A stretch of 64,000 nt of DNA from positions 1,116,001 to 1,180,000 of the forward strand of contig NZ_JAWJEJ010000001.1 in NCBI RefSeq assembly GCF_032911445.1. The letters run 5' to 3'. Position numbers and translations under genes: made by a program. Below the pieces are notes generated by a model that worked only from the letters and a program-made list of their open reading frames with translations, was not told where the DNA came from and did no database searches. Shown one piece after another: positions 48,564-64,000 of the stretch. This DNA is from Sphingomonas sp. HF-S4 (GTDB lineage Bacteria; Pseudomonadota; Alphaproteobacteria; Sphingomonadales; Sphingomonadaceae). Every line of letters begins with the position of its first letter. Position 1 is the stretch's first letter.

Positions 48564-49304
48564 TCAGCAGGCGGCGAAAGCACGGTCCGCCGCCGCGCGA
48601 CGGGCAGCGGGAAGGTCGTCGTCGATCGTCGGCATTGCCGTAGCCGAGCGCATGCGGAAATGGGTACCGATCGCGCCCCGGCGGCGGATCTGGAGCTTCT
48701 CCAGGATATTGTGGATGTGGTTCTTGACCGTCGCCGGGCCAATCCGCAGCTCGATCGCGATCTCTTTGTTGGACAGACCCTCGGAGGCGAGCGCGGCGAT
48801 CTCGCGCTCGCGCCGGGTGAGCGCGGCCACGGGCGGGGGGGTGGCAACGGTGCCCGAGAGGGCGGCGACGCGGCGGCAGAGCATCGCGACCAGCTGAGGC
48901 GGGCAGCCGACCTCGCCGGCGATCGCCTGCTCGATCGCCCGTTCGAGCTCGGCGAGCGTGCCGTCGCGCCCGACAAAGCCGATGAGCCCCGCCTCTGCGC
49001 AGGCGACGCTTGTCTGCGCGCTGCCGATCCCGAAACCGACGATCGGCAGCGGTGGGCGGATCGCGTGGAGCCGCCGTGCGACCACCAGCGATTCAGGCGC
49101 CGACGCGTCGAGCAGCACCGCATCGACGCCGAGCGTCGGCAGCTGCGCCACGGCCTCGATCCCGCTCAGCGCAGCGGCGATCGTCATCCGTTCCGATTGC
49201 GCGAGACCGCGCGCGACGCCCTCGCGATACAGCAGCACGTCGCTGACCACGAGAACGCGGATCGTGCGGCGGCCATTCGCGGCCCGGGCCTGACTCGTCA
49301 TCAT
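48564..49304 (-). CDS. LuxR/NarL-type response regulator
   Basis: A 246-residue regulator. The N-terminal receiver domain opens RVLVVSDVLLYREGVARGLAQ, and has a phosphoacceptor-type aspartate in VDAVLLDASAPESL. The usual acidic pair after the first strand is replaced (VVSDV), so phosphorylation is doubtful. The C-terminal LuxR HTH is LTRREREIAALASEGLSNKEI, then IELRIGPATVKNHIHNILEKL, with RRRGAIGTHF continuing. It diverges from the contractile-injection operon 480 bases away and could control it. It overlaps nothing, and no histidine kinase is nearby. Confidence 0.85.
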   Translation of the reverse strand: MMTSQARAANGRRTIRVLVVSDVLLYREGVARGLAQSERMTIAAALSGIEAVAQLPTLGVDAVLLDASAPESLVVARRLHAIRPPLPIVGFGIGSAQTSVACAEAGLIGFVGRDGTLAELERAIEQAIAGEVGCPPQLVAMLCRRVAALSGTVATPPPVAALTRREREIAALASEGLSNKEIAIELRIGPATVKNHIHNILEKLQIRRRGAIGTHFRMRSATAMPTIDDDLPAARRAAADRAFAAC

Positions 49305-49784: not shown

Positions 49785-50093
49785 ATGCCCACGATGCTCA
49801 GCGAGATCGTGGGGCAGATGCTAGACGGTCGCGACATCGTGATCGCCGGCCCCAGCGCGCCGGGCACCGATGCGCTCGCCGCCGCACGCGCGCTGGGTGC
49901 GCAGCTGCTCGTCGTCCAGTCCGAGGCGGACGATCGGACGATCGAGCAGATCTTCGCGCTCCCCGAGCTGACCATCCTGATGATCTCGAGCGACGGGCGC
50001 CAGGGCCGGATCGTCAGCTTCGCCCAGCAACCGGTGTCGCTCGATCGCGCGTCGATGGCGGTGCTGGTCGCGCCCAGCGCGGGACACGCCTGA
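49785..50093 (+). CDS. Small receiver-like protein heading the CIS operon
   Basis: A 102-residue protein from ATG 49785: MPTMLSEIVGQMLDGRDIVI, then AGPSAPGTDALAAARALGAQ and LLVVQSEADDRTIEQIFALP, ending SLDRASMAVLVAPSAGHA. The beta-alpha pattern and the first strand (DIVIAGPSA) resemble a CheY-like receiver, but the phosphoacceptor is not evident. The strongest ribosome-binding site (GGAGGAGGGG) is placed for an in-frame ATT at 49758, which would add nine residues; the start is therefore uncertain. TGATG overlap with the cap gene puts it in the operon. Function unknown; it could regulate assembly. Confidence 0.6.
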   Translation: MPTMLSEIVGQMLDGRDIVIAGPSAPGTDALAAARALGAQLLVVQSEADDRTIEQIFALPELTILMISSDGRQGRIVSFAQQPVSLDRASMAVLVAPSAGHA

Positions 50094-50677
50094 TGGCGAA
50101 CTATCGCGCCATCGCCGCCGCCAGCACCACCATCCTGGGGCTGCTGCGCGATCGCTTCCCCAATGGCGATTTCGGCGGGCCGCTGACGATCGAGCTGTAC
50201 CAGGCCAAGGACTTCGCCACGCCGATGAAGGAGGGGATCGCGATCTGCCTGTGGCGCGTCGCCCCCAACATCTCGCGCCGGGCGCTCGGCCCGCGTACCG
50301 ACATCCACGGCCGGCGCTTCAAGCCTTCGCTGCCGATCGACCTCTTCTACCTGCTCGTGCCCTATGCCGACGATGCCGAGCGCCAGCAGCGGCTGCTCGG
50401 CTGGATGCTGCGCGCGATGCACGAGCTGGGCCCGCTGGTCGCCAGCGAGCTCAACCATTTCCTCGCCGAGAGCGACATCTTCGCGGAGGCCGAGACGCTC
50501 GACATGGTCAACGATCCGCTGGCGATCGCCGACCAGCTGACGCTGTGGGACCGGATCAAGCACATGCCCCCCGCAGCGACCTATGCGATGCGGATGCTGC
50601 TGCTCGACAGCGACGAGACGCTCGACGAATATCCCATCGTCACCGAGCGCGCGATCGACCTGGGCGTGCTCGCATGA
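50093..50677 (+). CDS. CIS cap protein, DUF4255 (Pvc16/Afp16-like)
   Basis: A 194-residue protein of the DUF4255 family, which in phage-tail-like systems caps the distal end of the tube and sheath. Family features are the N-terminal YRAIAAASTTILGLLRDRFP helix and the middle ICLWRVAPNISRRALGPR. A lower block reads KPSLPIDLFYLLVPYADDAERQQRLLGWMLRAM and the C-terminal region DRIKHMPPAATYAMRML. It is flanked by the receiver-like gene and an accessory gene with one- to four-base overlaps. The cap role follows from the family; it is not proven here. Confidence 0.85.
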   Translation: MANYRAIAAASTTILGLLRDRFPNGDFGGPLTIELYQAKDFATPMKEGIAICLWRVAPNISRRALGPRTDIHGRRFKPSLPIDLFYLLVPYADDAERQQRLLGWMLRAMHELGPLVASELNHFLAESDIFAEAETLDMVNDPLAIADQLTLWDRIKHMPPAATYAMRMLLLDSDETLDEYPIVTERAIDLGVLA

Positions 50678-51552
50678 TCGCGGTGCGCGTCCTCGACCGG
50701 ATCTCGCGGCCCGCGCCGATCGGCATCCGCTTCCGCGATGTCGCGACCGGCGGGTTCGTCGGCGACGGGCTGCGCGTGACGGTCACCTCGGTGCGCAATC
50801 CCGCGCGCCGCGCGCTGCTCGAGGCCAATGCCAAGGCGGTGTGGTACGCGAACCGCTTCCCCGGATTCTCGGACGCAGCGTTGGGCGGCCCCGATTGGGA
50901 AGCACTCCAGCAGCCCTGCCTGGTCGAAGTCGACGACGCGTATGGCCGCTTCCTGCCGCTGCGCATCGTGCTCGATTTGCCCCAGCGCGGGCTGGTCGAC
51001 TGGCCGGGCTGGGGCGATCTGCCGCCTGATCCGCTATTGCCGCTCGCCAATGACGACAGCCCGCCGGCGATCTCGCCCGAGACGCTGCCGCTCTTCTCGG
51101 CGCCCGGGCGAAGCCTGCCCGCGCCGCTCGCCGAGATACGCTGCCAGCTCGAGCGCGACGATGGCGGTCCCGCAGCCTGGGCGCTGCTCACCGCGTCGCA
51201 TGGCGGCACCGTCCGCGCGATCGGCCAGGCCGATGCGCAGGGCAGGGCAGTCCTTTTCTTCGCCTATCCCGAGCGTCCGCGACCCTCGCTCGCCACCTCG
51301 CCGCCGGCGATTACCGACTTCCGCTGGTCGATCGAGCTCGCCGCTTATTGGGACGGTCTCGATCCCGCCGAGCCGCCCGAATTCGCCGCGCTGATGGCGC
51401 AGCTCGATCATCCGCGCACGCTGTTCGCATCCACCGCTTCGCCGCCCGAGCCGCTGCCCTCGCAACTGCTCAGCTTCGGGCGCGGCCTCGTGCTGCGCAC
51501 CGAATCCACTCCCGATGGCCCGTCCTCCTCTCTCCTCATGGCGGCGTCATGA
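50674..51552 (+). CDS. CIS-associated beta-rich accessory protein
   Basis: A 292-residue protein directly after the cap gene (ATGA overlap). The first part reads IGIRFRDVATGGFVGDGLRV and WYANRFPGFSDAALGGPDWE, suggesting a carboxypeptidase-regulatory-like or FN-like beta domain. Then come a YGRFLPLRIVLDLPQRGLVDWPGW segment and a second beta-rich half (about residues 165-245). The C-terminus is low-complexity (SSSLLMAAS). I do not recognise a named family. Similar proteins next to DUF4255 genes would suggest a cap-associated role. It is followed by 19 bases with its own ribosome site for sheath 1. Confidence 0.6.
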   Translation: MIAVRVLDRISRPAPIGIRFRDVATGGFVGDGLRVTVTSVRNPARRALLEANAKAVWYANRFPGFSDAALGGPDWEALQQPCLVEVDDAYGRFLPLRIVLDLPQRGLVDWPGWGDLPPDPLLPLANDDSPPAISPETLPLFSAPGRSLPAPLAEIRCQLERDDGGPAAWALLTASHGGTVRAIGQADAQGRAVLFFAYPERPRPSLATSPPAITDFRWSIELAAYWDGLDPAEPPEFAALMAQLDHPRTLFASTASPPEPLPSQLLSFGRGLVLRTESTPDGPSSSLLMAAS

Positions 51553-51571
51553 AACACCAAGGAGAAAACTG

Positions 51572-53482
51572 ATGCCCGAATATCTCGCGCCTGGCGTGTT
51601 CGTGGAGGAAGTCTCCTTCCGCGCGAAATCGATCGAAGGCGTTTCCACCACCACCACCGGCTTCGTCGGCGCGACGCGCTATGGCCCGATCGACATCGAG
51701 CCCGAGATCGTCACCAGCCTGGTCGAGTTCGAACGCGCCTATGGCGGCAAGTCCAAGCTCACCTTCTCCGACGGCGGCGAGACCGACAACTACACCTGGA
51801 ACGCCGTCCGCGCGTTCTTCGAAGAGGGCGGCAAGCGCTGCTATGTCGCCCGCGCCTACACCCCCTCGGCAGACACGCCGTGGGATGGCTATGCCATCGC
51901 CGACACCGCCACGATCGAGGACGGCTCGCCCCCCGACCAGCTCGACTTCGCGGTGCGTGCGCGCTTCCCCGGCCAGGCCGGCAATGGCCGCGTCACCTTC
52001 ACCCTCGCGCTCGGGCAGAACCGGCTCGCGCGCAATCCCGACGACACCGTATCGCTGAAGGGCACTGCCGACCGCGACGTGGTCTGGGTCGGCGCGCCGG
52101 TCAACGGCTTCCGCCTGCTGCTGTGGGACCAGCTCAACCGCGTCTGGAAGCTCGGCGAGGCCGACGACACGCTCGACAGCGCCGACGAGGTCGGACCGCT
52201 GTTCCCGGCGCCGGCGGATCCCGACGACGACGATCTCGATATCCGCGTGGTCACCGTCACGGTCACGGTCGAGCCGCTGACCAACGACCTGCCGACCTTC
52301 GTCGCCACCGAGCTGCCGCTCGATCCGCTCCACGAGCGGGGCGGCGCGCCGGATTCGCTGTTCGCCTATTTCGCCGAAACCCCGGCGAGCCTGTCGCGGG
52401 CGCGGACGATCCCGATCGTGATCGGCGCCTATGCCAATAACGGTCTCGATGTGCTCGACGATCTGCGCGACCTGCACGATCTAAACGTGCTGACCTCGCC
52501 GCCCGAGCAGCTCGACACGCTGCTGCGCGATCCCGAAAGCAGCAACGCCGCGCGCAGCGTCGTCGTGCGGCTCACCGGCGGCCATGACGGCGCGACGCCG
52601 CTCCCCATCGCCTATGCCGGCGAGACCAATGCGACGACCAATCGCTCCAGCGGGCTCGTCGCGTTCGAGGCGCTGGAGGACATCTCGATCGTCGCCGCGC
52701 CGGGCGGGATGGTGACCGAGACGCCGCGCTCGCGGGCGATCATCGCCAATTTGATCGGGCATGCCGAGCGGATGAAATACCGGATCGCGGTGATCGACAG
52801 CGCCAAGGGCCAGACGATCTCCGAGGTGCGCGCGCTGCGGGCGCTCTACGACAGCAGCCACGCGGCATTCTATTATCCCTGGGTGCGGATCCTCGATCCG
52901 CTGACGGGGCAGGAGAACCATTACCCGCCCTGCGGCTTCGTCGCCGGCATCTATGCCCGCAACGACACCAATCGCGCAGTCTACAAGGCGCCGGCCAACG
53001 AAGTCGTGACCCTCGCGATCGGCTTCGAGACCCTGCTCAACAAGGCGCATCAGGAGGTGCTGAACCCGGAAGGGATCAACTGCTTCCGCTTCTTCGAGGG
53101 CCGCGGCATGCGGCTCTGGGGCGCGCGGACGATGTCGAGCGATCCCGAGTGGAAATACGTCAATCTGCGGCGCTATTTCGCCTATCTCGAACGCTCGATC
53201 GACAAGGGCACCCAATGGGCGGTGTTCGAGCCCAATGGCGAGCGGCTCTGGGCGAACGTCCGCTCGACGATCCAGGATTTCCTGCTCAACGAGTGGCAGA
53301 ACGGCGCGCTGCTGGGCGACAAGCCCGACAAGGCCTTCTTCGTGAAGTGCGACCGCTCGACCATGTCGCAGAACGATCTCGATAACGGCCGGCTGGTCTG
53401 CCTGGTCGGAGTCGCGCCGCTGCGTCCCGCCGAATTCGTCATCTTCCGCATCGGCCAGTGGACGGCCGACCGCAAGATCTGA
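51572..53482 (+). CDS. CIS contractile sheath protein 1
   Basis: The main sheath subunit, contracting to drive the tube. The 636-residue protein has the N-terminal tail-sheath opening YLAPGVFVEEVSFRAKSIEGV, then STTTTGFVGATRYGPI. A variable middle domain (about residues 100-340) includes DPDDDDLDIRVVTVTVTVEP. The C-terminal sheath core is APGGMVTETPRSRAIIANLIGH, YYPWVRILDPLTGQENHYPP, CGFVAGIYARNDTNRAVYKA, WKYVNLRRYFAYLERSIDKG and WAVFEPNGERLWANVRSTI. A strong AAGGAG lies eight bases before ATG 51572. It is larger than minimal sheaths (about 480 residues) because of the middle insertion. Followed by tube 1. Confidence 0.95.
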   Translation: MPEYLAPGVFVEEVSFRAKSIEGVSTTTTGFVGATRYGPIDIEPEIVTSLVEFERAYGGKSKLTFSDGGETDNYTWNAVRAFFEEGGKRCYVARAYTPSADTPWDGYAIADTATIEDGSPPDQLDFAVRARFPGQAGNGRVTFTLALGQNRLARNPDDTVSLKGTADRDVVWVGAPVNGFRLLLWDQLNRVWKLGEADDTLDSADEVGPLFPAPADPDDDDLDIRVVTVTVTVEPLTNDLPTFVATELPLDPLHERGGAPDSLFAYFAETPASLSRARTIPIVIGAYANNGLDVLDDLRDLHDLNVLTSPPEQLDTLLRDPESSNAARSVVVRLTGGHDGATPLPIAYAGETNATTNRSSGLVAFEALEDISIVAAPGGMVTETPRSRAIIANLIGHAERMKYRIAVIDSAKGQTISEVRALRALYDSSHAAFYYPWVRILDPLTGQENHYPPCGFVAGIYARNDTNRAVYKAPANEVVTLAIGFETLLNKAHQEVLNPEGINCFRFFEGRGMRLWGARTMSSDPEWKYVNLRRYFAYLERSIDKGTQWAVFEPNGERLWANVRSTIQDFLLNEWQNGALLGDKPDKAFFVKCDRSTMSQNDLDNGRLVCLVGVAPLRPAEFVIFRIGQWTADRKI

Positions 53483-53493
53483 GGAGAGCCAGC

Positions 53494-53946
53494 ATGGCCG
53501 TCTTTCGCGATCGTCCGTACGTCCAGTTCAACTTCCTCGTCGATATCGGCGACGGCAACACCGAGGGGCCGGCCGCCGGCTTCCAGGAGTTGTCGGGCAT
53601 CGGCATGGAAGTGACCGTCTCGGAGTACCGGACCGGGAACTCCCGCGAGAATTCGGTGATGAAGATCACCGGGATGAACAAGTCGACCGACGTCACGATG
53701 AAGCGCGGCGTGATCGGGTCGCTCAATCTCTACCAGTGGCTCGACGATATCCGGAACGGCAACCAGAACGCCTTCCGCACGGTCAAGGTCACGCTGCAGA
53801 ACGAGGACCACAGCGCCGCGGTGGTGACGTGGAAGCTGCTCCGCGCGCGGATCATCAAGTCGACGATGGGGCCCTTCAACGCCAAGGGCACCGACGTGGC
53901 GATGGAGGAGATGGTCCTCGCCTACGAACGGCTTGAGATGGAGTGA
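53494..53946 (+). CDS. CIS inner tube protein 1 (gp19-like)
   Basis: Small hexamer-forming subunit of the inner tube. The 150-residue protein has the T4 gp19/Hcp-like fold: MAVFRDRPYVQFNFLVDIGD, GAGFQELSG-like AAGFQELSGIGMEVTVSEYR, the long ENSVMKITGMNKSTDVTMKRG and FNAKGTDVAMEEMVLAYERLE. A GAGGAG-type ribosome site precedes ATG 53494. Paired with sheath 1 (12 bases apart), it is likely the major tube. A second tube gene follows sheath 2. Confidence 0.94.
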   Translation: MAVFRDRPYVQFNFLVDIGDGNTEGPAAGFQELSGIGMEVTVSEYRTGNSRENSVMKITGMNKSTDVTMKRGVIGSLNLYQWLDDIRNGNQNAFRTVKVTLQNEDHSAAVVTWKLLRARIIKSTMGPFNAKGTDVAMEEMVLAYERLEME

Positions 53947-53950
53947 CGCC

Positions 53951-56134
53951 GTGTACCCGCATCGCCTCCTTCCCGGCATCGCCATAGCCGTTCCGCCGCC
54001 CGCGTTTCCCGACGCGCTGCCGCGGATGGACGTGGCGCTGTTCGTCGGCTTCGCCGAGCGCGGCCCGACGCACCGGCCCGTCGCGGTCGAGAGCGTCGCG
54101 GCCTATGCGGCGGTGTTCGGCGGCGACGTCGTGCTGGCGCATGGCGAGAAACCGGTGACCGCGGCGCTGGCGCCGTCGGTGCGCAGCTTCTTCTCGAACG
54201 GGGGGACGCGCGCCTGGGTGATCCGGGTGGCGCGGACCGCCGCGCTCGAGCGGCGGTGGCGCGGCAAGGAGGCCACTGCCGATGTGGCGGTGGCGCGTAC
54301 CTTTACCTTGCCGTTTGCGCCGGGCGTCAAGGTGCGGGCGAGCAGCGTGGGGAGCTGGGCGGACGATGTCCGGGTTTCCGCGAGAGTGGAGCGGAGCGGC
54401 GGGCGTGTTCGGGTTCTGATTCGGGGTGAGAAGGGCGAAATGGGGGTGGTGAGCGGGCCCTTCGGGGTCTCGCCCGACGATCCCGATAGCTGGTGGAAAG
54501 AGCCCGATGACGATGGGTTCTATGCCGATCCCAGGGCGGTGGCGGGGCCGCGGGGGTGGCTGGCGCCGATGGGCACGCCTGCGGACTGGAATCTGTCCAA
54601 TTTGGGCGACTTCTGGTCGGAATCGGTCGGTCCTGACCCCGAAATGCGCACTCCCCTGGAGCGTGACGGGCTGTCGCGGTTCGATGCGGAGCTGTTCCTC
54701 GATCCGGCGCTGGCCACCTCGACGATCGCGGCGCTGGGCGACGATGCGGCGCGGATGCGCGATATCGACGGGGTGTCGCTGCTGGGCATCCACGGCGCGT
54801 TCGCGGTGCCGGGAGGCGGCGACTTCGCCGAGCCCAGCATGATCGCGGTGCCCGATGCGGTCCAGCCGGGCTGGGCGCCGCGGGTGCCCGAAAAGCTGGT
54901 GACGCCGGTCCATGTGCAGGGCGAGATCCCGGCGCGGTGGCGCGATCATCTGGGGTCGTGCGCGGTGCCCGAGCCCGTGCCGGGCACCGGTCGCCCCGAT
55001 CCGACGCGCTTCCTCGACTGCGACACGCGGTTGCTCGCGATGCCGGTGTTCGTCGCGGTGGACAGCCCGCAGGCCGCGGGGCTCGTGCACCTCGAATGGT
55101 CGGCGTCCGAGCCGGGCGCGACCTATGTGCTCGAGGAATCGGGCCGCGCCGACTTTGCCGGCGCCGAGGAGATCTGGCGCGGCGAGGCGCTGGAATACGA
55201 GGTCCAGGTTTCGCGCGAGGGCTCCTATTACTACCGCGTCCGCGCCGAGCTCGACGGCAATGTCAGCAAGGCCTCGGTCATCGGCTTCCTCGTCCAGGAC
55301 AGCGCCTGGGAAGCGGTGCCCGATGCGAAATACGATCCCGAGCCGCTGCTCAGGGTGCGGACCGCGCTGCTGCGCACCTGCGCGGCGATCGGCGACCAGT
55401 TCGCCTTGCTCTCGCTGCCACGCCATTACCGCGCCCGCGACGCCGCCGAGCATGTCGCGACGCTCGCCGAGCGGCTGCCCGACAACGAGCTTCGCGCGCT
55501 GAGCTATGCGGCGCTCTATCATCCCTGGATCGCCTCGCCGATCGGCAGCGCGACCGACCCCGACTGGCTCGTCGTCCCGCCCGAAGGCGCAGTCGCCGGC
55601 ACCTTCGCACGGCGGGCGCGGCAGCGCGGGGCGTGGCTCGCCCCGGCCAACATGCCGATGGAGGACCTGGTCGCGCTGTCGCCGACAGTCGGGGACCGCG
55701 ACCGCGAGGACTTTGCCCGGGCGCGCGTCAATCTGGTGCGCCGCCTGCCGATCGGGTTCGTCGCGACCGACGCGATGACCCTGTCCGGCGAGTATGACTG
55801 GGGCGAAGTCAACGTCCGCCGGCTAATGAGCCTGCTCCGCCGCGTATGCGTCCGCCGCGGCGCCCCCTTCGTGTTCGAGCCCAATGGCGACACCACGCGC
55901 CGCGCGATCGAGCGCAGCTTCGGCCATATGCTCGACGACATGGTCCGTCGCGGCGCCTTTGCCGGGAAAGGCAAGGAGGACAGCTACCGGCTGAGCGTCG
56001 ACGCGAGCGAGAGCGACCGGATGAACGGCCGGCTGGTGATCGAGATCGGCGTCGCCCCCGCGCAGCCGCTGCGCTTCCTGACGCTGGTGCTGGCGCAGGC
56101 CGGCGAGCGCTTCACCATCGCCGAGGAGCGCTGA
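53951..56134 (+). CDS. CIS sheath protein 2 with inserted FN3-like domain
   Basis: A second sheath paralogue of 727 residues with start GTG 53951 (VYPHRLLPGIAIAV); an in-frame TTG at 53933 is possible. Sheath elements are the N-terminal LFVGFAERGPTHRPV and the C-terminal core: ALSYAALYHPWIASPIGSAT, AVAGTFARRARQRGAWLAPAN, WGEVNVRRLMSLLRRVCVRRG, FVFEPNGDTTRRAIERSFGH. Between them, about residues 362-447 form an independent-looking domain (VFVAVDSPQAAGLVHLEWS, TYVLEESGRADF, EYEVQVSREGSYYYRVRAEL), an FN3-like beta-sandwich pattern. The first middle insertion lies at about residues 120-310. Probably a minor sheath or baseplate-proximal ring component. The stop is two bases from tube 2. Confidence 0.88.
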   Translation: MYPHRLLPGIAIAVPPPAFPDALPRMDVALFVGFAERGPTHRPVAVESVAAYAAVFGGDVVLAHGEKPVTAALAPSVRSFFSNGGTRAWVIRVARTAALERRWRGKEATADVAVARTFTLPFAPGVKVRASSVGSWADDVRVSARVERSGGRVRVLIRGEKGEMGVVSGPFGVSPDDPDSWWKEPDDDGFYADPRAVAGPRGWLAPMGTPADWNLSNLGDFWSESVGPDPEMRTPLERDGLSRFDAELFLDPALATSTIAALGDDAARMRDIDGVSLLGIHGAFAVPGGGDFAEPSMIAVPDAVQPGWAPRVPEKLVTPVHVQGEIPARWRDHLGSCAVPEPVPGTGRPDPTRFLDCDTRLLAMPVFVAVDSPQAAGLVHLEWSASEPGATYVLEESGRADFAGAEEIWRGEALEYEVQVSREGSYYYRVRAELDGNVSKASVIGFLVQDSAWEAVPDAKYDPEPLLRVRTALLRTCAAIGDQFALLSLPRHYRARDAAEHVATLAERLPDNELRALSYAALYHPWIASPIGSATDPDWLVVPPEGAVAGTFARRARQRGAWLAPANMPMEDLVALSPTVGDRDREDFARARVNLVRRLPIGFVATDAMTLSGEYDWGEVNVRRLMSLLRRVCVRRGAPFVFEPNGDTTRRAIERSFGHMLDDMVRRGAFAGKGKEDSYRLSVDASESDRMNGRLVIEIGVAPAQPLRFLTLVLAQAGERFTIAEER

Positions 56135-56135
56135 C

Positions 56136-56609
56136 ATGGCCGACGAACCGCCGCGCCCCTATCCGTTCATGGCGTTCAACTTCGCGGTGGAGATCATGCG
56201 CGCAGGCGAGGGCAAACCGCTGGTCGAGGCTGCCTTTTCGGACTGCGACGGGCTCGAGATGACGATGGACGTCAAGACCATCAAGGAAGGCGGCGCCAAC
56301 GATCGCTCGATCCGCGTCAACGGTACGGTGGCCTATGCCAATCTCTCGCTCAAGCGCGGGATGACCGACAATTTCGAGCTGTGGCAATGGTTCGAGGATT
56401 CGGTCGCCGATCCGCGGCTGCGCGCCGATGCCGAAGTGGTGATCCTCGGACCGGACGGCAGCGAGCGTGCGCGATTCCAGCTTTCGCGCTGCGTGCCGAT
56501 CAAGATGAAGGCGCCGACGCTGAGCTCGACCGGCGCGGCGGTGGCGATCGAGGAACTCCAGATCGCGTACGAGACGCTAAAGTTCGTGCCCGGAAAGGCC
56601 GCGGCATGA
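56136..56609 (+). CDS. CIS inner tube protein 2 (gp19-like)
   Basis: A 157-residue tube paralogue beginning MADEPPRPYPFMAFNFAVEI. It carries FSDCDGLEMTMDVKTIKEGG, YANLSLKRGMTDNFELWQWF and APTLSSTGAAVAIEELQIAYE. It diverges clearly from tube 1 and is more similar to baseplate-end tube initiators in T4-like systems. The gene order tube 1, sheath 2, tube 2 is conserved-looking in CIS clusters; tube 2 then overlaps the LysM-type gene by four bases. It likely starts the tube at the baseplate. Confidence 0.9.
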   Translation: MADEPPRPYPFMAFNFAVEIMRAGEGKPLVEAAFSDCDGLEMTMDVKTIKEGGANDRSIRVNGTVAYANLSLKRGMTDNFELWQWFEDSVADPRLRADAEVVILGPDGSERARFQLSRCVPIKMKAPTLSSTGAAVAIEELQIAYETLKFVPGKAAA

Positions 56610-57427
56610 CCGAACTCGCCAAGGCCCAGCTGATCCAGCTCGACGACGACTTCAAGAAGGAGAAGCCGGGCGGGCAGAGCGTCAAGGTCCAGTTCAATCC
56701 CGAGAGCCTGAAGGTGACCTTCGCCAACCAGCTCGTCCAGCCGCAGGGCGGCGACCAGGCGGCGGGGAATACCGGGCGGCAGTTCGTCGGCGCGGGGACG
56801 ACCAAGCTCGCGCTCACTTTGTGGTTCGACGTCACTGCGATGACCGAGGATCCGGTCGACGACGTACGCCGGCTCACCCAGAAAGTGATCTTCTTCATGA
56901 CGCCGACCCCCGACAAGGCCGATGCCAAGAAGATGGTGCCGCCGGCGACGCGCTTCGTCTGGGGATCGTTCCTGTTCGACGGGATCGTCGAGGGGCTCGA
57001 GGAGAGCCTGGAATTCTTCGGCCCCGACGGCAAGCCGCTGCGCGCGCAGATCAGCCTGACGATCGGCCAGCAGAAGATCCTTACCTCCGAGTTCAAGGGC
57101 GACGGCAAGGTGCCGTCGTCGCCGGGGCAAAAGCCGATGTCGCAGGCCAAGGAAGGCGACACCGCGCAGAGCGTGGCGGCGAAGAACGGCAAGTCCGACT
57201 GGAAGGGCATGGCCGCCGCCAACGGGATCGAGGACCCGCTGCGCCTGTCGCCGGGCCAGCTGATCGACGTCAATGCCGGCGTGAGCCTGGGCGGCAGCGC
57301 GGGCGTGGGCATCGCTGGTGGAGCGGGCATCAGCGGCGGGATCGGCTTCTCGGCGGGCGCCAACATCCAGCCGCCATCGATCACGCCGCCGAAATTCTCG
57401 GCGAGCGCGTCGGTGCGGATCAATTGA
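56606..57427 (+). CDS. CIS tube-adaptor protein with LysM-like segment (Pvc7/Afp7-like)
   Basis: A 273-residue protein with an N-terminal tube-binding domain (KAQLIQLDDDFKKEKPGGQS, VKVQFNPESLKVTFANQLVQ, LALTLWFDVTAMTEDPVDDV and PPATRFVWGSFLFDGIVEGL). It carries a LysM-type motif near residues 185-225 (EGDTAQSVAAKNG, WKGMAAANGIEDPLRLSPGQLI). The C-terminus is a glycine-alanine-rich tail (about residues 230-273). It resembles the gp53-like or peptidoglycan-binding baseplate protein of CIS, connecting tube and hub. Starts in the tube 2 stop. Confidence 0.88.
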   Translation: MTELAKAQLIQLDDDFKKEKPGGQSVKVQFNPESLKVTFANQLVQPQGGDQAAGNTGRQFVGAGTTKLALTLWFDVTAMTEDPVDDVRRLTQKVIFFMTPTPDKADAKKMVPPATRFVWGSFLFDGIVEGLEESLEFFGPDGKPLRAQISLTIGQQKILTSEFKGDGKVPSSPGQKPMSQAKEGDTAQSVAAKNGKSDWKGMAAANGIEDPLRLSPGQLIDVNAGVSLGGSAGVGIAGGAGISGGIGFSAGANIQPPSITPPKFSASASVRIN

Positions 57428-57437
57428 GGAGGGGCGC

Positions 57438-57602
57438 GTGGCAGTCGTCATCAACGAATTCGAAGCGATCTCCGCGCCCGGCCAGGAGAAGCCGGAAGAG
57501 AAGAAGGGGGGCGACGGCGCGCCGCAGAGGATCGAGCCCGCGCAGCTCCGGCCGCCGCTGCGCCGCATCGCGCAGCGGCATGCACGGCTGAGGGCGCACT
57601 GA
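57438..57602 (+). CDS. Very small baseplate protein (DUF5908-like)
   Basis: A 54-residue protein from GTG 57438 (MAVVINEFEAISAPGQEKPE), preceded by GAGGAGGGGCG. Positions of the small conserved Pvc6/DUF5908 gene in CIS clusters match: between the LysM protein and the gpD-type hub. Its C-terminus PPLRRIAQRHARLRAH is basic. It ends TGATG over the hub start. The assignment rests mainly on position and size. Confidence 0.7.
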   Translation: MAVVINEFEAISAPGQEKPEEKKGGDGAPQRIEPAQLRPPLRRIAQRHARLRAH

Positions 57603-58675
57603 TGCCCGCCGCTGCTTCCAACGTGACGCCGCTGCCGATGCGGCCGGCGCGCCCGACGATCGAGATCGGCGGGACGCGGGCCGACAAGCTCGAGTCCGCG
57701 CTGATCACGATGGAGCTTGCCGACAGCGTCGAGGGCATGGCCCGCGCCGAATTGGTGTTCGGCAATTGGGGCGGCGGCGACACCCCGGGCTTCCAGCATT
57801 TTGACCGCAAGACCATCGAGTTCGGCAAGCCGGTGAAGGTCAAGCTGGGCGACGATTTGCTGTTCGAAGGCAGGATCAGCGCGATCACTGCCGATTTCGC
57901 CGATGGCGCGCCGCCGACGATCGGGGTGCTGGTCGAGGACCGGTTGCAGGACCTGCGGATGACCCGGCGCTCGCGGACCTTCGAGCGGGCGACGATCGCC
58001 GATGTCGCGAAGAAGATCGCGTCCGAGCATGGCCTCACCCCCAAGGTCGACGTGCAGGGCGCGAGCCAGCTCTGCATCGCGCAGGTCAACCAGAGCGATC
58101 TGGCGCTGCTCCATGATCTCGCGCGGCGCGAGGATGCGCTGGTCTGGGTGCAGGACAAGGAACTGCATGTCGCCAAGCTGCGCCCGGCCGAGAAGGTTGC
58201 GCTGCGCTGGGCGGGATCGCTGCGCGAATTCCATGTCGAGGCCGATCTCGCCAGCCAGCGCACTGCGATGGTCGCGAGCGGGTGGAACGTCGCCGACAAG
58301 AAGGTCGCTACCAACAAGGCTACCGATGCCGCGATCTCGGGGGAGACGGGTTCGACCGACAGCGGCGCCAAGATCCTCAAGTCCGCGTTCGGCGAGCGTG
58401 TCGACACGATCGCACATGCGCTGCCGCGCGACGATGCCGAGGCGCGCGCGATCGCCGAGGCGAGCTTCCGCCACATGGCGCGGCGCTTCGTCACCGGCGA
58501 AGGCGTCGCCGAGAGCAAGGCGGCGATCAAGGTGGGGGCGACGCTGGCGCTAACCGGGCTCGGCAAGCTGTTCGACGGCGACTACCGCGCCACTGCGGTC
58601 ACCCACCGCTTCGATCAGGCGATGGGCATGCGCAGCGAATTCCGCTGCGAGCGCGCCGGGCTGGGGAAAGCGTGA
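57602..58675 (+). CDS. CIS spike hub protein (phage late control gpD-like)
   Basis: A 357-residue hub protein of the gpD/VgrG N-terminal family, forming the trimer between tube and spike. Features: RPTIEIGGTRADKLESALIT, FVDRLQDLRMTRR-like VEDRLQDLRMTRRSRTFER, TIADVAKKIASEHGLTPKVD, CIAQVNQSDLALLHDLARRE, WVQDKELHVAKLRPAEKVAL and a C-terminal GDYRATAVTHRFDQAMGMRS. The stop overlaps the spike start by one base. Together with the separate spike gene this is the split VgrG layout seen in CIS rather than a T6SS VgrG. Confidence 0.93.
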   Translation: MPAAASNVTPLPMRPARPTIEIGGTRADKLESALITMELADSVEGMARAELVFGNWGGGDTPGFQHFDRKTIEFGKPVKVKLGDDLLFEGRISAITADFADGAPPTIGVLVEDRLQDLRMTRRSRTFERATIADVAKKIASEHGLTPKVDVQGASQLCIAQVNQSDLALLHDLARREDALVWVQDKELHVAKLRPAEKVALRWAGSLREFHVEADLASQRTAMVASGWNVADKKVATNKATDAAISGETGSTDSGAKILKSAFGERVDTIAHALPRDDAEARAIAEASFRHMARRFVTGEGVAESKAAIKVGATLALTGLGKLFDGDYRATAVTHRFDQAMGMRSEFRCERAGLGKA

Positions 58676-59391
58676 TGCTGCTCGATCTCGATCGCGGCGA
58701 AGCGCAGTTCCACGAGCGCGGGAGCGAGGGCTGGGGCGGGCGCTGGTATGGCGTCGTCCCGGCCACCGTCACCGATATCCAGGATCCCGACGGGCAAGGG
58801 CGCGTGAAGATCAAGCTCGACTGGTCGCCCGATGCCGGGGGCGGGCAGGGCTATGCGGCCTGGGCGCGGATGGCGACCTTGTTCGCGGGCAACAATCGCG
58901 GCAGCTGGTTCATCCCCGATGTCGGCGACGAAGTGCTCGTCGCGTTCGAGCACGGCGATCCGCGGCGGCCCTATGTGCTCGGCGGGCTGTGGAACGGCAA
59001 GGACAAGCCGCCGCAATCGATGGCGAGCGGCAACAACCTCAAGGTTATCCGCAGCCGCAACGGGGTGAAGGTCACGCTCGACGATTCGAGCGGCAAGGAG
59101 ACGCTCAAGCTCGAGACCCCCGGCGGGCAGAAATTGACGATGAAGGACGGCCCCGGCGCGGTGACGATCGAGGATTCGAACGGCAATTCGGTCAAGCTCG
59201 AGACGTCGGGGATCACGATCACCGCGGCGGCCAAGGTGACGGTCAATGCCAGCCAGGTCGCGGTCTCCGCCGGGATGGTCAAGGTCGATGCCGGGATGTC
59301 GACCTTTTCGGGCATCGTGAAGTGCGACACGCTGATCTCGAACACAGTGATCTCGACGACCTACACGCCGGGCGCGGGGAACATCTGGTGA
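58675..59391 (+). CDS. CIS spike protein (baseplate assembly protein V-like)
   Basis: A 238-residue spike with an OB-fold (YGVVPATVTDIQDPDGQGRVKIKLDW, FIPDVGDEVLVAFEHGDPRR, YVLGGLWNGKDKPP) and a C-terminal triple-stranded beta-helix formed by repeating short units (GVKVTLDDSSGKETLKLETPG, KLTMKDGPGAVTIEDSNG, ITITAAAKVTVNASQVAVSAG). Both the fold order and the length match gpV/gp5-type spikes. No PAAR repeat protein follows. ATG 58675 is used; GTG 58672 is an alternative. Overlaps the unknown 684-residue gene by four bases (GTGA). Confidence 0.93.
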   Translation: MLLDLDRGEAQFHERGSEGWGGRWYGVVPATVTDIQDPDGQGRVKIKLDWSPDAGGGQGYAAWARMATLFAGNNRGSWFIPDVGDEVLVAFEHGDPRRPYVLGGLWNGKDKPPQSMASGNNLKVIRSRNGVKVTLDDSSGKETLKLETPGGQKLTMKDGPGAVTIEDSNGNSVKLETSGITITAAAKVTVNASQVAVSAGMVKVDAGMSTFSGIVKCDTLISNTVISTTYTPGAGNIW

Positions 59392-61442
59392 CCGCGCTGG
59401 CACACAAGGTCACGTGGCAGGCGCCGCGGCCGCTGTGGCGGGGAACGACGCCGTTCCAGGCGCGTCCGCAATTGCTGCGCTTCGCCAGCGACGACTTCAT
59501 GGAGCAGTTGCTCGCGACCCTGGCCGAGGAGCCGGCGCGGATTTCCGACCGGATCGCGCGGCCCGAGACGTGGCGCGATCCGCCGATGCCGGCCGACCTG
59601 CTCGACGCCGTAGTCCGCGTGCCGATCCCGGCGCCGATGCAGGAAGCCAAGCGCAGGCGCTTCTGGCGCGCCGCGCCCTCGGCACCGCCGCCCGCACCGC
59701 CGGCGAACAAGCAGCTCAAGCTCTACCAGCCGGCGCACCAGCGTTACTATCTCGTCGCGGGGACGCTCGCCTGTCAGATCCCCGGATTGCCCGAGCGCGC
59801 CGTCGAGGGCGGGCACGAGACCGTGGGGTTCGTGATGCGGCGGCTGCTGCCGGCGAGCGGGCGCGCCGACGGGACGCTGCCGCTGGTCGAATACGCTTAT
59901 GTGATGGGCAGCGATGGCCCGGAGTGGCAGCGCGTCGAGGCCGATGCGGGGCTCGCGCCGGGCGAGGAGCAGCTTCCGCTGTTTCCGCTCCAGCACCGCG
60001 ACGAGGAAGGCGCGCGGCGGACGATCTGGGCGGGGATGATCCCGGTCGCGCGGCGCGAGGAGTATCTCGGCAAGTCGGTGGTCACCACGCCGGTGTCGCT
60101 CGCCGCGGGGCAGATGGCAGCGCTCAAGCCCGGCGCGCCGGCGGCGCGGCCGGTGACCAAGGTGGCGCGCACCGCGCAACTGCGCATCGAAGTGATCGAG
60201 CCGTGGAAGGCGCTGGTCCGCGCGGCGATCAAGGCGGCGGACGAGTTCCGAACCAACACGCCGGATTCGCAGGAAAGCAATGCCGAGCGCGCCGAGCGGG
60301 TGCGCGACTATAATTATCAATACCAGCACCAGTCGTGGCTGTTGCTGCTCGACCTGCGCAAATGGCTCGACCTGCATCTGCCGCGCGTGGCGGCGCGGCT
60401 GAGCGACACCACTCAGCCGCCCGACAGCGTGCTCAACATCTCCGAGCAGGCGGCATGGCGGGCGATGCACAACCTCGTCTCGGGCGGGCCGATCCCGCCG
60501 GCGGGCAAGACCAAGGCGCCGTCGATGCGCGACGCGGTGCGCCGTATCCTCGCCTGGGAGCCCAAGCTCGATGCGGTCACCACGCATTATGCCGACGGCA
60601 CCAAGGCCAATGCCGACTGGCCCGACTTTCACTTCCAGCTGGTCGGGATGGTCGCCCCGCCGAACAAGCAGGCGGCCGCGACGCTGGACGGGCCCTACAA
60701 GACCGTGCTCGCCGGGGGCGATCCGTTCAGCACGACGCTCGATCCGCCCGCCAATGACGAGACGGTGATCCTCGATCCGGTGGACAGCCCGGACGTTAAC
60801 GTCGATGTCGAGAAGCTCGACCGCTTCCTCGCGCTGCTGGCGCGCGCGCTGCCCGACAGCGACGAGGCGACGGTCCAGCCGATCCCGCACGCGATGAAGC
60901 TGCGCGACGTGATGATCAAGACCGCGGGCGACCAGGGGCTGTTCGTCGCGCGGATGGTCCATATGAACGCGGATTGCGGACCGCTGCATCCGCCGACGCT
61001 CTCGAAGGGCAGCGAGCAGTTCAGGCTCGCCAGCTTCTTCGATCCCGATGCGCCGGTGCGGCCGATCACGATCACCCTGCCGACCGACACCAGCCCGGCT
61101 GGCCTGCGCAAGCACGGGCGCGGGACGGCGTTCGTGATGTCCGACCTGCTCTGCGGGCAGGTACAGCGCGCCAAGGGGTTCGGCTTCATCGACCTGGTGC
61201 TCCAGGTGCTGCCCTGGCCGTTCCACAAGAGCATCAAGATGAAGAAGGGCGCCGAGGGGGGCGGCTGCAAGGGCGGCAGCAATGTCGACATCGGCATGAT
61301 CTGCTCGCTGTCGATCCCGATCATCACGATCTGCGCGCTGATCCTGCTGATCTGCATCGTGCTGCTGCTCGACTTCATCTTCCGCTGGGTGCCGTGGTTC
61401 ATCGCGTGCTTCCCGCTGCCGCGGTTCAAGGGGAAGGCATGA
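59388..61442 (+). CDS. Unknown CIS-operon protein with hydrophobic C-terminus
   Basis: A 684-residue protein between the spike and gp25 genes. The start is GTG 59388 (GTGA overlap); stop overlaps gp25. Two blocks appear ordered: about residues 115-290 (YYLVAGTLACQIPGLPERAV, GHETVGFVMRRLLPASGR) and about 300-560 (helical, NAERAERVRDYNYQYQHQSW, DLRKWLDLHLPRVAARLSD). The C-terminal 80 residues contain an amphipathic KGFGFIDLVLQVLPWPF, a cysteine- and glycine-rich stretch, then the hydrophobic segment SIPIITICALILLICIVLLL (about residues 638-665) and RWVPWFIACF. No family recognised, and no signal peptide. A membrane anchor or a pore-forming tip element are possibilities, not established. Confidence 0.7.
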   Translation: MTALAHKVTWQAPRPLWRGTTPFQARPQLLRFASDDFMEQLLATLAEEPARISDRIARPETWRDPPMPADLLDAVVRVPIPAPMQEAKRRRFWRAAPSAPPPAPPANKQLKLYQPAHQRYYLVAGTLACQIPGLPERAVEGGHETVGFVMRRLLPASGRADGTLPLVEYAYVMGSDGPEWQRVEADAGLAPGEEQLPLFPLQHRDEEGARRTIWAGMIPVARREEYLGKSVVTTPVSLAAGQMAALKPGAPAARPVTKVARTAQLRIEVIEPWKALVRAAIKAADEFRTNTPDSQESNAERAERVRDYNYQYQHQSWLLLLDLRKWLDLHLPRVAARLSDTTQPPDSVLNISEQAAWRAMHNLVSGGPIPPAGKTKAPSMRDAVRRILAWEPKLDAVTTHYADGTKANADWPDFHFQLVGMVAPPNKQAAATLDGPYKTVLAGGDPFSTTLDPPANDETVILDPVDSPDVNVDVEKLDRFLALLARALPDSDEATVQPIPHAMKLRDVMIKTAGDQGLFVARMVHMNADCGPLHPPTLSKGSEQFRLASFFDPDAPVRPITITLPTDTSPAGLRKHGRGTAFVMSDLLCGQVQRAKGFGFIDLVLQVLPWPFHKSIKMKKGAEGGGCKGGSNVDIGMICSLSIPIITICALILLICIVLLLDFIFRWVPWFIACFPLPRFKGKA

Positions 61443-61828
61443 TGAGCCCGTTCGGCAAGAGCCTCGGCTTTCCCCCGCGCGTCGGCGCCGACGGGCGGAT
61501 GCGCTGGTCGCAGGGGGAGGCGAACGTGCGCGAATCGATCGCGATCATCCTCAAGACCGAGGCGGGCGAGCGGATCCAGCTGCCCGGTTTCGGGGCGGGG
61601 CTGGGGCGCTATCTGTTCGAGCCCAACAATCCCGCGACGCATGTCCGCATCGCCGCCTCGATCGAGGATGCGCTCAAGGCCTGGGAGCCGCGCATATCGC
61701 TCGACGGGGTGGACGTGGCGCCCGATCCCACCGACGCCACCGCCGCGCTCGCCACCATCGCCTATCGCCTCGTCGCGACCGGCGCGGCCGAGCGGACGAG
61801 CGTCTCGATCCCGCTGGGGAGAAGCTGA
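61439..61828 (+). CDS. CIS baseplate wedge protein (gp25/GPW-like)
   Basis: A 129-residue gp25 family protein. ATG 61439 (MMSPFGKSLGFPPR) lies on the stop of the preceding gene. Core segments are MRWSQGEANVRESIAIILKTEAGERI, LPGFGAGLGRYLFEPNNPATHVRIAASIEDALKAWEPR and DATAALATIAYRLVATG. Initiates sheath polymerisation at the baseplate in related systems. Overlaps the J-like gene by one base (TGATG). Confidence 0.93.
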   Translation: MMSPFGKSLGFPPRVGADGRMRWSQGEANVRESIAIILKTEAGERIQLPGFGAGLGRYLFEPNNPATHVRIAASIEDALKAWEPRISLDGVDVAPDPTDATAALATIAYRLVATGAAERTSVSIPLGRS

Positions 61829-64000
61829 TGCCGCTGCCTGCCCCCCGCATCGACGATCGCGACTATCGCGCGCTGGTCGAGGAGACGCTCGCCCGCGTTC
61901 CCGTCCACACGCCCGAATGGACCAATTTCAATCCGTCCGATCCGGGGGTGACGATCGTCCAGCTGTTCGCGTTCCTGACCGAGAATCTGATCTATCGCGC
62001 GAACCTGATCCCCGAGCGCAACCGGGCGAAGTTCCTGCAATTGCTCGGCATCCCGCTGCGTACTGCGAGCGAGGCGCGCGGGCTGGTGGCGTTCGCGAAC
62101 GAGAAGGGTGCGCTCGCGACCCAGACGATCCAGCGCGACTTCGAGCTGCTCGCAGGCGCAATGCCGTTCCGCACGGTGACCGGGCTCGACGTGCTGCCGG
62201 TCGAGGCCAAGCTGTTCGTCAAGCGGCCGGTGGCGAACCCGGCGCCCGAGCTACGGAAATATTACGAGCTGCTCTACGCCTCGTACGGCGCGACGCTGCC
62301 GGCGCAGCTCACGCTCTACCAGAGCGCGCCGTTCGATCCGGCGCAGGGGCCGCTCGACTTGGCCGAGACGATCGATCGGACGCTGTGGATCGCGCTGGTC
62401 GCGCGGAAGGACGACCTTGCCGCGACCGACGACCCGACCAAGCTGGTGCGCGAGGCGATTGCGGGGCGGAACCTTTCGCTCGGGCTGGCGCCGGCCGAGG
62501 ATGTCGAGCAGCTGGCTATCCCCGTGGGCGGGGCGACGACGGCGCCGGCGGACCTGCTGCGCTACGACATCGCCCGGCCGGCGGCGAACGGCGAGCTGCT
62601 GTTCGTCAATGGGCGGCCGGCGCCCGACTGGCGGGCGCTCGATGCGCGGGCGGACTTCGATCCGTCGCGCGAGGTGGGGGTGGTCGAGATCGGGCTGCCC
62701 GAGGCCGATGCGCTCCGGTTGTGGAACAACCTCGATCCGTTCGAGGCGGGGGTGGGCGAATTGCCCCCGGCGATCGACGACAGCGCGATCGCCGAGACGC
62801 TGGTCACCTGGATCCGCGTGCGCGCCTCGTCGGCGGCGGAGGTGCGGCTGCGCTGGGCGGGGATCAATGCGGTCGGCGTGCGCCAGTTCGAGACGATCCG
62901 CGCCGAGCGCCTAGCCGACGGCGACGGCAGCCCCGACCAGGTCCGCCAGCTCGCCAAGGCGCCGGTGCTCGAGAACAGCGTCGCGATCGTCAGCGTGTCG
63001 CCCGAAGGGACCGAGACCGAATGGAGCGCGATCGACGATCTGCTCGCCGCCGCGCCCGAGGTGCCCATACCGGGCGCGAGCCAGCAGCTCGGCCCGGCGA
63101 CGTCGTTCCGCGTCGATGCCGAGGCCGGGGTGGTCAGCTTCGGCGACGGGCTGGCGGGGCGGCGGCCCGGCGCCGACGAGCGGCTCTATGCGCGATACGA
63201 GTATAGCGAGGGGCAGGAAGGCAATGTCGGCCCCCATGCGCTCAAGGCCGGTCCGCTGGCACCCGGCGGCTTCACCGCGACCAATCCGATCGCGACCTGG
63301 GGCGGCACCGACGCCGAGAGCGTGCGATCGGGCGAGAAGCAGGTGCAGCGGATGCTCCAGCACCGCGACCGGCTGGTCACCGAGGCCGATTTCCGCAGCA
63401 TCGCCTGGCGCACGCCGGGCGTGTCGATCGGACGGATCGACGTGCTCCCGGCCTGGCATCCCGACCTCGCCCCTGGCGCGATCGGCACCGTGCCCGGCGT
63501 GGTGACGCTGCTCGTCGCCCCGCGCAACGATCCCGAGCACCCCGCCGCGCCGCGCCCCGACGCACCGTTTCTCGACGCGCTGTGCGCCTATCTCGATCCG
63601 CGCCGGCTGGTGACCACCGAGTTGGTGCTGCGCGGGCCGGCGTACAAAAGGATCTGGGTGTCGGTGGGGATCGAAGTCGGCGGCGGCTATACGATCGCCG
63701 AGGTGGCCGACGCCGTTAAGGCGCGGCTGCGCGCCTATCTGAGCCCGCTGCCTCCCGAGGACAGCGACTTCTCGACCACCGAGGGCCCGCTCTACGGCCC
63801 CGCGACCGATCCGGCGCTGCGCGGCTGGCCGCTCGGTCGCCCGGTCCATGCCCGCGCACTGATGGCCGAGGCGGCGCGCGTGCCCGGCGTGGTCGAAGTC
63901 GCCGACATCCAGCTCGCGCTCGACACCGGCGGCAAGATGGACGCGGTGCCCATCACCGGGATCGAGCTTCCCGAGCTGGCCGGCATCTCGGTGGTCGGCG
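61828..64000 (+). CDS. CIS baseplate protein J-like (gp6/Pvc11-like), truncated by window end
   Basis: An open frame from ATG 61828 to the window end (at least 724 codons; no stop seen). It begins MPLPAPRIDDRDYRALVEET and has WTNFNPSDPGVTIVQLFAFL, LTENLIYRANLIPERNRAKF and LLGIPLRTASEARGLVAFAN, all strong gpJ/gp6 baseplate features. A later block reads VSFGDGLAGRRPGADERLYARYEYSEGQEGNVGP, then ADFRSIAWRTPGVSIGRIDV and, near the end, a PVHARALMAEAARVPGVVEVADI element. The reading continues to the right, where further baseplate, ATPase and tape-measure genes are expected. Confidence 0.92.
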   Translation, partial: MPLPAPRIDDRDYRALVEETLARVPVHTPEWTNFNPSDPGVTIVQLFAFLTENLIYRANLIPERNRAKFLQLLGIPLRTASEARGLVAFANEKGALATQTIQRDFELLAGAMPFRTVTGLDVLPVEAKLFVKRPVANPAPELRKYYELLYASYGATLPAQLTLYQSAPFDPAQGPLDLAETIDRTLWIALVARKDDLAATDDPTKLVREAIAGRNLSLGLAPAEDVEQLAIPVGGATTAPADLLRYDIARPAANGELLFVNGRPAPDWRALDARADFDPSREVGVVEIGLPEADALRLWNNLDPFEAGVGELPPAIDDSAIAETLVTWIRVRASSAAEVRLRWAGINAVGVRQFETIRAERLADGDGSPDQVRQLAKAPVLENSVAIVSVSPEGTETEWSAIDDLLAAAPEVPIPGASQQLGPATSFRVDAEAGVVSFGDGLAGRRPGADERLYARYEYSEGQEGNVGPHALKAGPLAPGGFTATNPIATWGGTDAESVRSGEKQVQRMLQHRDRLVTEADFRSIAWRTPGVSIGRIDVLPAWHPDLAPGAIGTVPGVVTLLVAPRNDPEHPAAPRPDAPFLDALCAYLDPRRLVTTELVLRGPAYKRIWVSVGIEVGGGYTIAEVADAVKARLRAYLSPLPPEDSDFSTTEGPLYGPATDPALRGWPLGRPVHARALMAEAARVPGVVEVADIQLALDTGGKMDAVPITGIELPELAGISVVG

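Follow-up and report, generated by a model that had tools for sequence, protein, structure and literature searches.

A contractile injection system operon of Sphingomonas sp. HF-S4 with a conserved membrane-tailed protein and a predicted exchangeable toxin end

The stretch analysed here (the window) comprises 64,000 nucleotides, positions 1116001-1180000 of contig NZ_JAWJEJ010000001.1 (C1), in the 4.44 Mb, three-contig genome of Sphingomonas sp. HF-S4 (G000), and an operon for a contractile injection system (CIS) runs across its right edge. Genes were called with our own codon-based script in the window and in 40 kb past this edge, and their products were searched with Pfam and NCBIfam; coordinates above 64000 continue the window numbering. 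The gene calls yield a single operon of 24 genes at 49785..81276 (Table 1), all on the plus strand and all with open frames, the last 17 kb of which lie outside the window. Domain matches identify a Pvc16 (DUF4255) cap, two sheaths, two gp19-type tubes, a CIS_tube adaptor, a hub and spike split over two genes, gp25, gpJ and a Tail_P2_I protein, together with collagen-like and CIS13-like fibres, an AAA ATPase, an eCIS_core (DUF4157) protein, a 348-aa gene and GT2/methyltransferase genes. With this content, that of eCIS/PVC-like systems, in one operon the locus is certainly a CIS, as an earlier sequence-only reading of the window had proposed: the sheaths, tubes, cap, split hub/spike, gp25 and gpJ that it listed were all recovered, and the ATPase and fibre genes that it suggested looking for to the right are present downstream. 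Its LysM-like adaptor is a CIS_tube protein, of which the LysM part falls just short of the cut-off, but its label 'DUF5908-like' for the 54-aa mini-protein found no backing in Pfam. Gene overlaps of one to four bases at 'nearly all' junctions were overstated: eight of 13 junctions inside the window overlap, and 13 of 23 across the whole operon.

The sequence-only reading missed the gene at 59388..61442. It encodes a 684-aa protein that matches nothing in Pfam or NCBIfam and no PDB sequence, and that by hydropathy is the only operon protein with a clear transmembrane-strength segment (peak 3.32 at residues 643-661, against 1.89 for the next best operon protein). This segment ends about 20 residues before the C-terminus, and no C-terminal domain follows it. 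The AlphaFold model (predicted local distance difference test score, pLDDT, 83.7 overall) is mostly confident in the N-terminal part and has a single helix at residues 636-674, with pLDDT values of 48-87 along the helix, and bears no convincing resemblance to a known fold.

The protein was matched by 606 of 7995 candidates scored, itself included. It is 86% identical in Sphingomonas sp. LM7, and the tube is 97-98% identical in S. naasensis and in the Sphingomonas metagenome-assembled genome (MAG) MAG-45, which fits the sphingomonad host assumed in the earlier reading. A scan of one genome per species confirmed 109 loci, and the best 80 of these span Sphingomonas, Caulobacter, Erythrobacter, Lysobacter, Burkholderiales, Acidobacteria, Nitrospirae, Bacteroidetes, Verrucomicrobia and others. 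The hydrophobic C-terminal segment is present in all 80 loci, and in all 77 that have both neighbours the gene lies between spike and gp25 on the same strand (the remaining three lack one neighbour). In a survey of 298 genomes of the family, relatives occur in nine: eight of the 15 with CIS_tube and one of the 283 without (Fisher 4e-11), the latter being an assembly of 370 contigs. For G191, G096, G002 and G158, four of these nine, the profile alignment covers about residues 627-689 only. Three of these four were inspected, and there the tail terminates proteins of 549, 520 and 513 aa directly beside gp25; in G096, residues 531-684 additionally align in blastp at 32%. A profile built from the tail alone matched three of 398 phylum genomes, all three among the 16 with CIS_tube. 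No tail was seen in seven of the 15 CIS_tube genomes of the family and in 13 of the 16 of the phylum. Because little beyond the tail aligns in a few divergent CIS, the C-terminal tail is by alignment the most constant part of this protein family, and it marks a minority of CIS. That the conserved membrane tail represents a fixed part of this CIS lineage is well supported by these comparisons, and the 684-aa protein is likely to be a membrane-docking component on the baseplate side.

A second region of interest lies past the window edge, in the 1153-aa eCIS_core protein and its neighbour. The stalk of this protein measures 583 aa here, 578-598 aa in 12 of 12 proteins and 578-627 aa in nine further ones; residues 210-770 are modelled as helical with low pLDDT, and the stalk may act as a tape measure. 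Against 11 relatives, identity amounts to 46-81% over residues 105-765 and to 9-19% over residues 846-1153, a pattern that gives good support to a C-terminal toxin end exchangeable between relatives. The gene 3' of eCIS_core changes together with the toxin end. In two relatives an Ntox15 C-terminus is followed by a Tdi1-family immunity gene, and the toxin end of HF-S4 resembles CdiA-CT. Toxins of the Ntox15 and CdiA-CT types are known from inter-bacterial fights. The signature of PD-(D/E)XK proteins is an alpha-beta-beta-beta-alpha-beta core with E, D and ExK residues; the modelled toxin end has the same order of elements, and the signature residues E1014, D1044, E1053 and K1055 are invariant in 10 of 10 sequences. 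A DNA-cutting PD-(D/E)XK nuclease is thus a moderately supported prediction for this domain, and so is immunity for the 348-aa gene directly behind it, which has a single homologue besides itself among 7998 candidates scored.

The 3' ends were read in 14 loci (G000, L068, L159-L161 and L163-L171). A small gene of non-housekeeping look follows the toxin in five of them (HF-S4, S. naasensis, MAG-45, G306 and Caulobacter). Same-strand genes also follow in Solimonas (164 aa, YbjN/CesT-like), Erythrobacter (343 aa) and Albimonas (337 aa); those of Erythrobacter and Albimonas were assessed by eye, and all three are left out of the count. In the other six loci no gene was called between the toxin and the next unrelated or glycosyltransferase (GT) gene. 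Since toxin end and co-changing neighbour gene form a module, the target is probably bacterial; this moderately supported assignment narrows the 'unknown' target of the earlier reading. Two further observations concern such proteins elsewhere. The locus of Solimonas soli (L166:8084-15149) contains two tandem eCIS_core-related proteins ahead of the 164-aa gene, a possible loading chaperone. A PD-(D/E)XK-like end is also found on a different 1123-aa protein without eCIS_core (P0125), perhaps belonging to another delivery system.

A large glycosyltransferase-type gene is situated at the 3' end in nine of the 14 loci and is missing in five. Five of the nine possess the GT2 plus methyltransferase gene, Solimonas, Ramlibacter and Variovorax have other GT genes, and Albimonas shows an MptE-like match below cut-off. 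The presence of different enzymes in the same 3' place suggests that the system includes some form of glycan modification, for which the fibres would be the obvious substrate.

Our data agree with the earlier reading that the system is not a type VI secretion system (T6SS): TssL/DotU (PF09850) and the N-terminal domain of TssM/IcmF (PF14331) have no match in the whole genome, while each profile matches one of 14 control genomes, that of E. coli. We consider a CIS held at the inner membrane, which fires a DNA-cutting toxin at neighbouring bacteria and whose producer is protected by the toxin-adjacent gene, to have about an even chance of being correct. The sequences themselves show the gene content and order, the conserved hydrophobic tail and the joint change of toxin end and neighbour gene; the functional steps built on them are inferred. 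The AAA ATPase would probably load the 1153-aa eCIS_core protein into the tube, where its helical stalk of about 583 residues would extend along the lumen and may set the tube length, with the predicted nuclease domain at the C-terminus as payload. Docking of the baseplate on the producer's cytoplasmic membrane, for which the T6SS has its TssJLM complex, would fall to the C-terminal helix of the 684-aa protein, and the collagen-like and CIS13-like fibres would serve as braces of the baseplate or as envelope sensors. Methylated glycans may be added to the fibres by the products of the terminal GT/methyltransferase genes, and the gene next to the toxin probably protects the producer.

Two properties of the 684-aa protein weigh against a simple tail anchor: the C-terminal flank of the tail is the more positive one in 81 of 81 sequences, and the protein has no signal-like N-terminus. 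The charge pattern would suit a released, Afp/PVC-like extracellular particle that includes the 684-aa protein, the tail of which enters the target membrane while the fibres bind the target. The operon also shares collagen-like and CIS13-like fibres and a Tail_P2_I adaptor with the eBAP3 extracellular CIS (PMC12923769), and no PAAR tip protein was matched at E 0.01 in the 24 operon genes (PAAR may be divergent or absent), so that the tip role might fall to the tailed protein. However, a membrane-tailed protein counts against the release of free particles as the fibres count for it, no lysis family appears among the Pfam/NCBIfam matches of the operon, and across phyla few parts of the protein are as conserved as the tail, as would be expected of a constant own membrane and not of diverse targets. 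We regard a released particle as unlikely, though as a serious alternative.

Alternatively, the system may be directed at the producing cell itself, in line with reports on Streptomyces: it would dock to the inner membrane from inside and release the nuclease for regulated cell death or DNA release. The sheath matches next to the best include 8bky/8bl4, which we take to be Streptomyces CIS structures. The architecture of DUF4157, tape-measure-like region and C-terminal endonuclease is shared with Tme of S. davawensis (PMC11126660). Yet the neighbour genes vary along with the toxin end, and two of them carry a T6SS immunity domain, a situation best explained if the attack is on kin and the producer has to stay alive; self-action appears improbable to us. 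Fibre genes, and the existence of extracellular CIS directed at such hosts (PMC10598620), could point to an amoeba, a nematode or a plant surface as target, but the CdiA-CT-like payload end and the Ntox15 toxins with Tdi1 immunity in relatives make an anti-eukaryotic system very improbable. That the homologous tail parts belong to a prophage or an R-tailocin is hardly credible, as the earlier reading also judged for a complete prophage: the 24 operon genes and eight flanking genes scanned gave no match to capsid, terminase, portal or integrase, neither the tube nor the tailed protein finds a match at E 1e-5 among 50,697 phage records, and the genes downstream of the operon also follow it in S. 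naasensis.

Several described systems resemble the inner-membrane-held CIS proposed here in part. The Tail_P2_I/eBAP3 extracellular CIS share the Tail_P2_I baseplate adaptor, several fibres, collagen-like shafts and core genes, whereas the main text of their description does not use the word 'transmembrane' and presents no membrane-tailed protein (PMC12923769). The T6SS-like CIS of Halogeometricum borinquense has DUF4157 cargo, toxin-immunity pairs and a conserved putative membrane anchor, but this anchor, Hbor_38620, is reported with six transmembrane helices upstream of the core cluster (PMC11566945), in contrast to the one C-terminal segment of HF-S4, encoded between spike and gp25. In Streptomyces a single-pass membrane protein, CisA, is likewise encoded with the CIS; it is described with a disordered N-terminus, a transmembrane segment and a periplasmic C-terminal domain, its gene lying downstream of the baseplate genes (PMC12237407), while the 684-aa protein, compared with this description and not by alignment, has a folded N-terminal part and its segment near the very end. 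The thylakoid-anchored CIS (tCIS) of Anabaena also attaches to the cell's own membrane, by a transmembrane helix in the fibre Cis13 and a Cis12 extension according to PMC8894136, whereas neither CIS13-like protein of HF-S4 (66765..68357 and 68361..69590) contains a segment with hydropathy of 1.6 or more. As described in these sources, each known relative attaches to the membrane differently: by the Cis13 helix in tCIS, by the six-helix Hbor_38620 in haloarchaea and by CisA in Streptomyces. Tme and Sle1 of Streptomyces resemble the eCIS_core protein in being DUF4157-linked and tape-measure-like with diverse C-terminal domains, a nuclease end and, in one case, an immunity partner; however, they come from other bacteria, the Tme nuclease is of another, EndA-like type, and Sle1 itself is described without DUF4157 (PMC11126660, PMC13277306).

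CIS are sorted by their mode of membrane contact, which is unknown for most genomic loci, and a conserved tail readable from sequence would allow many 'extracellular' loci to be tested as cell-bound weapons. We tentatively extend the proposal to a multi-phylum class of T6SS-like weapons made from extracellular CIS parts and free of TssJLM, docking at the inner membrane of the producer via a previously undescribed baseplate-side protein with a membrane tail (motif SIPI-T..A...W....P) and with a tape measure ending in an exchangeable antibacterial toxin with matching immunity gene; this broader claim is possible, but we would not yet rely on it. PMC8213781 raises a puzzle, in that most of the antibacterial extracellular CIS toxins it covers lack visible immunity genes; a toxin end varying in step with the gene beside it is relevant to this. 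If the stalk sets the tube length, toxin and ruler would be one molecule.

Table 1. Genes of the CIS operon and its divergent neighbour, in window numbering
Feature	Position	Strand	Matches and remarks
LuxR/GerE response regulator	48564..49304	-	GerE 1.4e-15; divergent from operon
102-aa first gene	49785..50093	+	no Pfam/NCBIfam match; 73-75% in L069 and L073 only
Pvc16/DUF4255 tube cap	50093..50677	+	PF14065 1.3e-21
292-aa protein	50674..51552	+	no Pfam/NCBIfam match; 24-83% identity in many of 80 loci
Sheath 1	51572..53482	+	PF04984 2.3e-18, PF17482; PDB sheaths 9ezm 1.3e-108, 8bky 3.5e-107
Inner tube 1	53494..53946	+	PF06841 2.4e-32
Sheath 2	about 53951..56134 (start GTG 53951 or ATG 54026)	+	PF17482 1.8e-7; sheath C-domain only
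Tube 2	56136..56609	+	PF06841 7.9e-34
Afp7-like tube-spike adaptor, LysM-like C-part	56606..57427	+	CIS_tube PF19266 1.6e-28; LysM 20.4 bits, cut-off 20.9
54-aa mini-protein	57438..57602	+	no Pfam match at E 10; 63-81% in L069, L070, L073
Spike hub, gpD part of split VgrG	57602..58675	+	PF05954 1.4e-14; NCBIfam VgrG_rel 5.8e-27, below cut-off
Spike needle, base_V part of split VgrG	58675..59391	+	PF04717 2.9e-27
684-aa membrane-tailed protein	59388..61442	+	hydrophobic C-terminal segment
gp25 baseplate wedge	61439..61828	+	PF04965 4.9e-21
gpJ/Afp11 baseplate protein	61828..64116	+	PF04865 9.1e-8, TIGR02243 1.4e-65; crosses window edge at 64000
Afp12-like adaptor	64110..66731	+	Tail_P2_I 3.5e-9; CIS12_fam 7.1e-29, partial, below cut-off
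Collagen-like fibre, CIS13-like N-terminus	66765..68357	+	Collagen 2.4e-13; CIS13_fam 5.7e-7, below cut-off; 18+9 G-X-Y triplets
Second CIS13-like protein	68361..69590	+	CIS13_fam 6e-6, below cut-off
Pro/Thr-rich protein, possible fibre part	69604..70347	+	composition
562-aa protein	70344..72032	+	no Pfam match at E 10; 28-66% in 11 relatives
AAA+ ATPase	72029..74002	+	PF00004 4e-24
eCIS_core (DUF4157) protein, 1153 aa	74004..77465	+	PF13699 3.5e-29
348-aa predicted immunity gene	77472..78518	+	directly 3' of eCIS_core gene
GT2 + methyltransferase	78515..80674	+	GT2 4.3e-18, Methyltransf_24 1.4e-15
Methyltransferase, last operon gene	80671..81276	+	Methyltransf_24 4.3e-23

Among the remaining genes, tube 2 is likely the tube initiator. 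The 292-aa protein is possibly a second cap or collar protein, and the 54-aa mini-protein possibly an Afp6-like plug; the former is a guess from gene position, the latter from size and position. The LuxR/GerE gene is likely the regulator of the operon: relatives with 46-48% identity occupy the same divergent position in two other genomes (G155 and G208), and GerE genes adjoining extracellular CIS loci are mentioned in PMC8213781. A SulP gene lies 3' of the operon on the opposite strand. SulP, carbonic anhydrase, kinase and response regulator genes (the last three judged from N-terminal sequences) follow the operon both here and in S. naasensis, and these common downstream genes give the operon the look of an established part of the chromosome. 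About 10 kb downstream of the operon, at extended coordinates 92000-104000 (L006), the guanine-plus-cytosine content drops to 0.638 and the coding signal is weaker, a possible island.

The genome possesses a second CIS on the minus strand (C1:33346-54130, L057/L058) with a fused hub-spike and three tube genes. None of its proteins shows tail-like hydropathy, and it offers a natural comparison with the tailed CIS inside one cell. An eCIS_core protein with an Ntox4 end adjoins it. Altogether HF-S4 has eight eCIS_core places, against at most two seen in any other of the 298 genomes of the family; for many of these genomes the count rests on just 18 scored first-look candidates. Haloarchaea (PMC11566945) and Moorena (PMC11297309) are reported to have several DUF4157 proteins in one genome, in part under scattered locus tags. 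Apart from the two CIS-linked ones, the eCIS_core proteins of HF-S4 are orphans whose end is Polysacc_deac_1, OmpA or unrecognised. The polysaccharide deacetylase fusion (L060:10288-12165) and the OmpA fusion (L061:7700-10399) may be cell-wall-directed cargo far from any CIS, and another orphan (L059:10113-11945, C1:3306290) lies directly beside terminase and portal genes, possibly in a gene transfer agent or prophage. Seven eCIS_core places occur in a Nitrosomonas MAG (G307, the genome behind L082), four of them in tandem on one contig as a cargo array.

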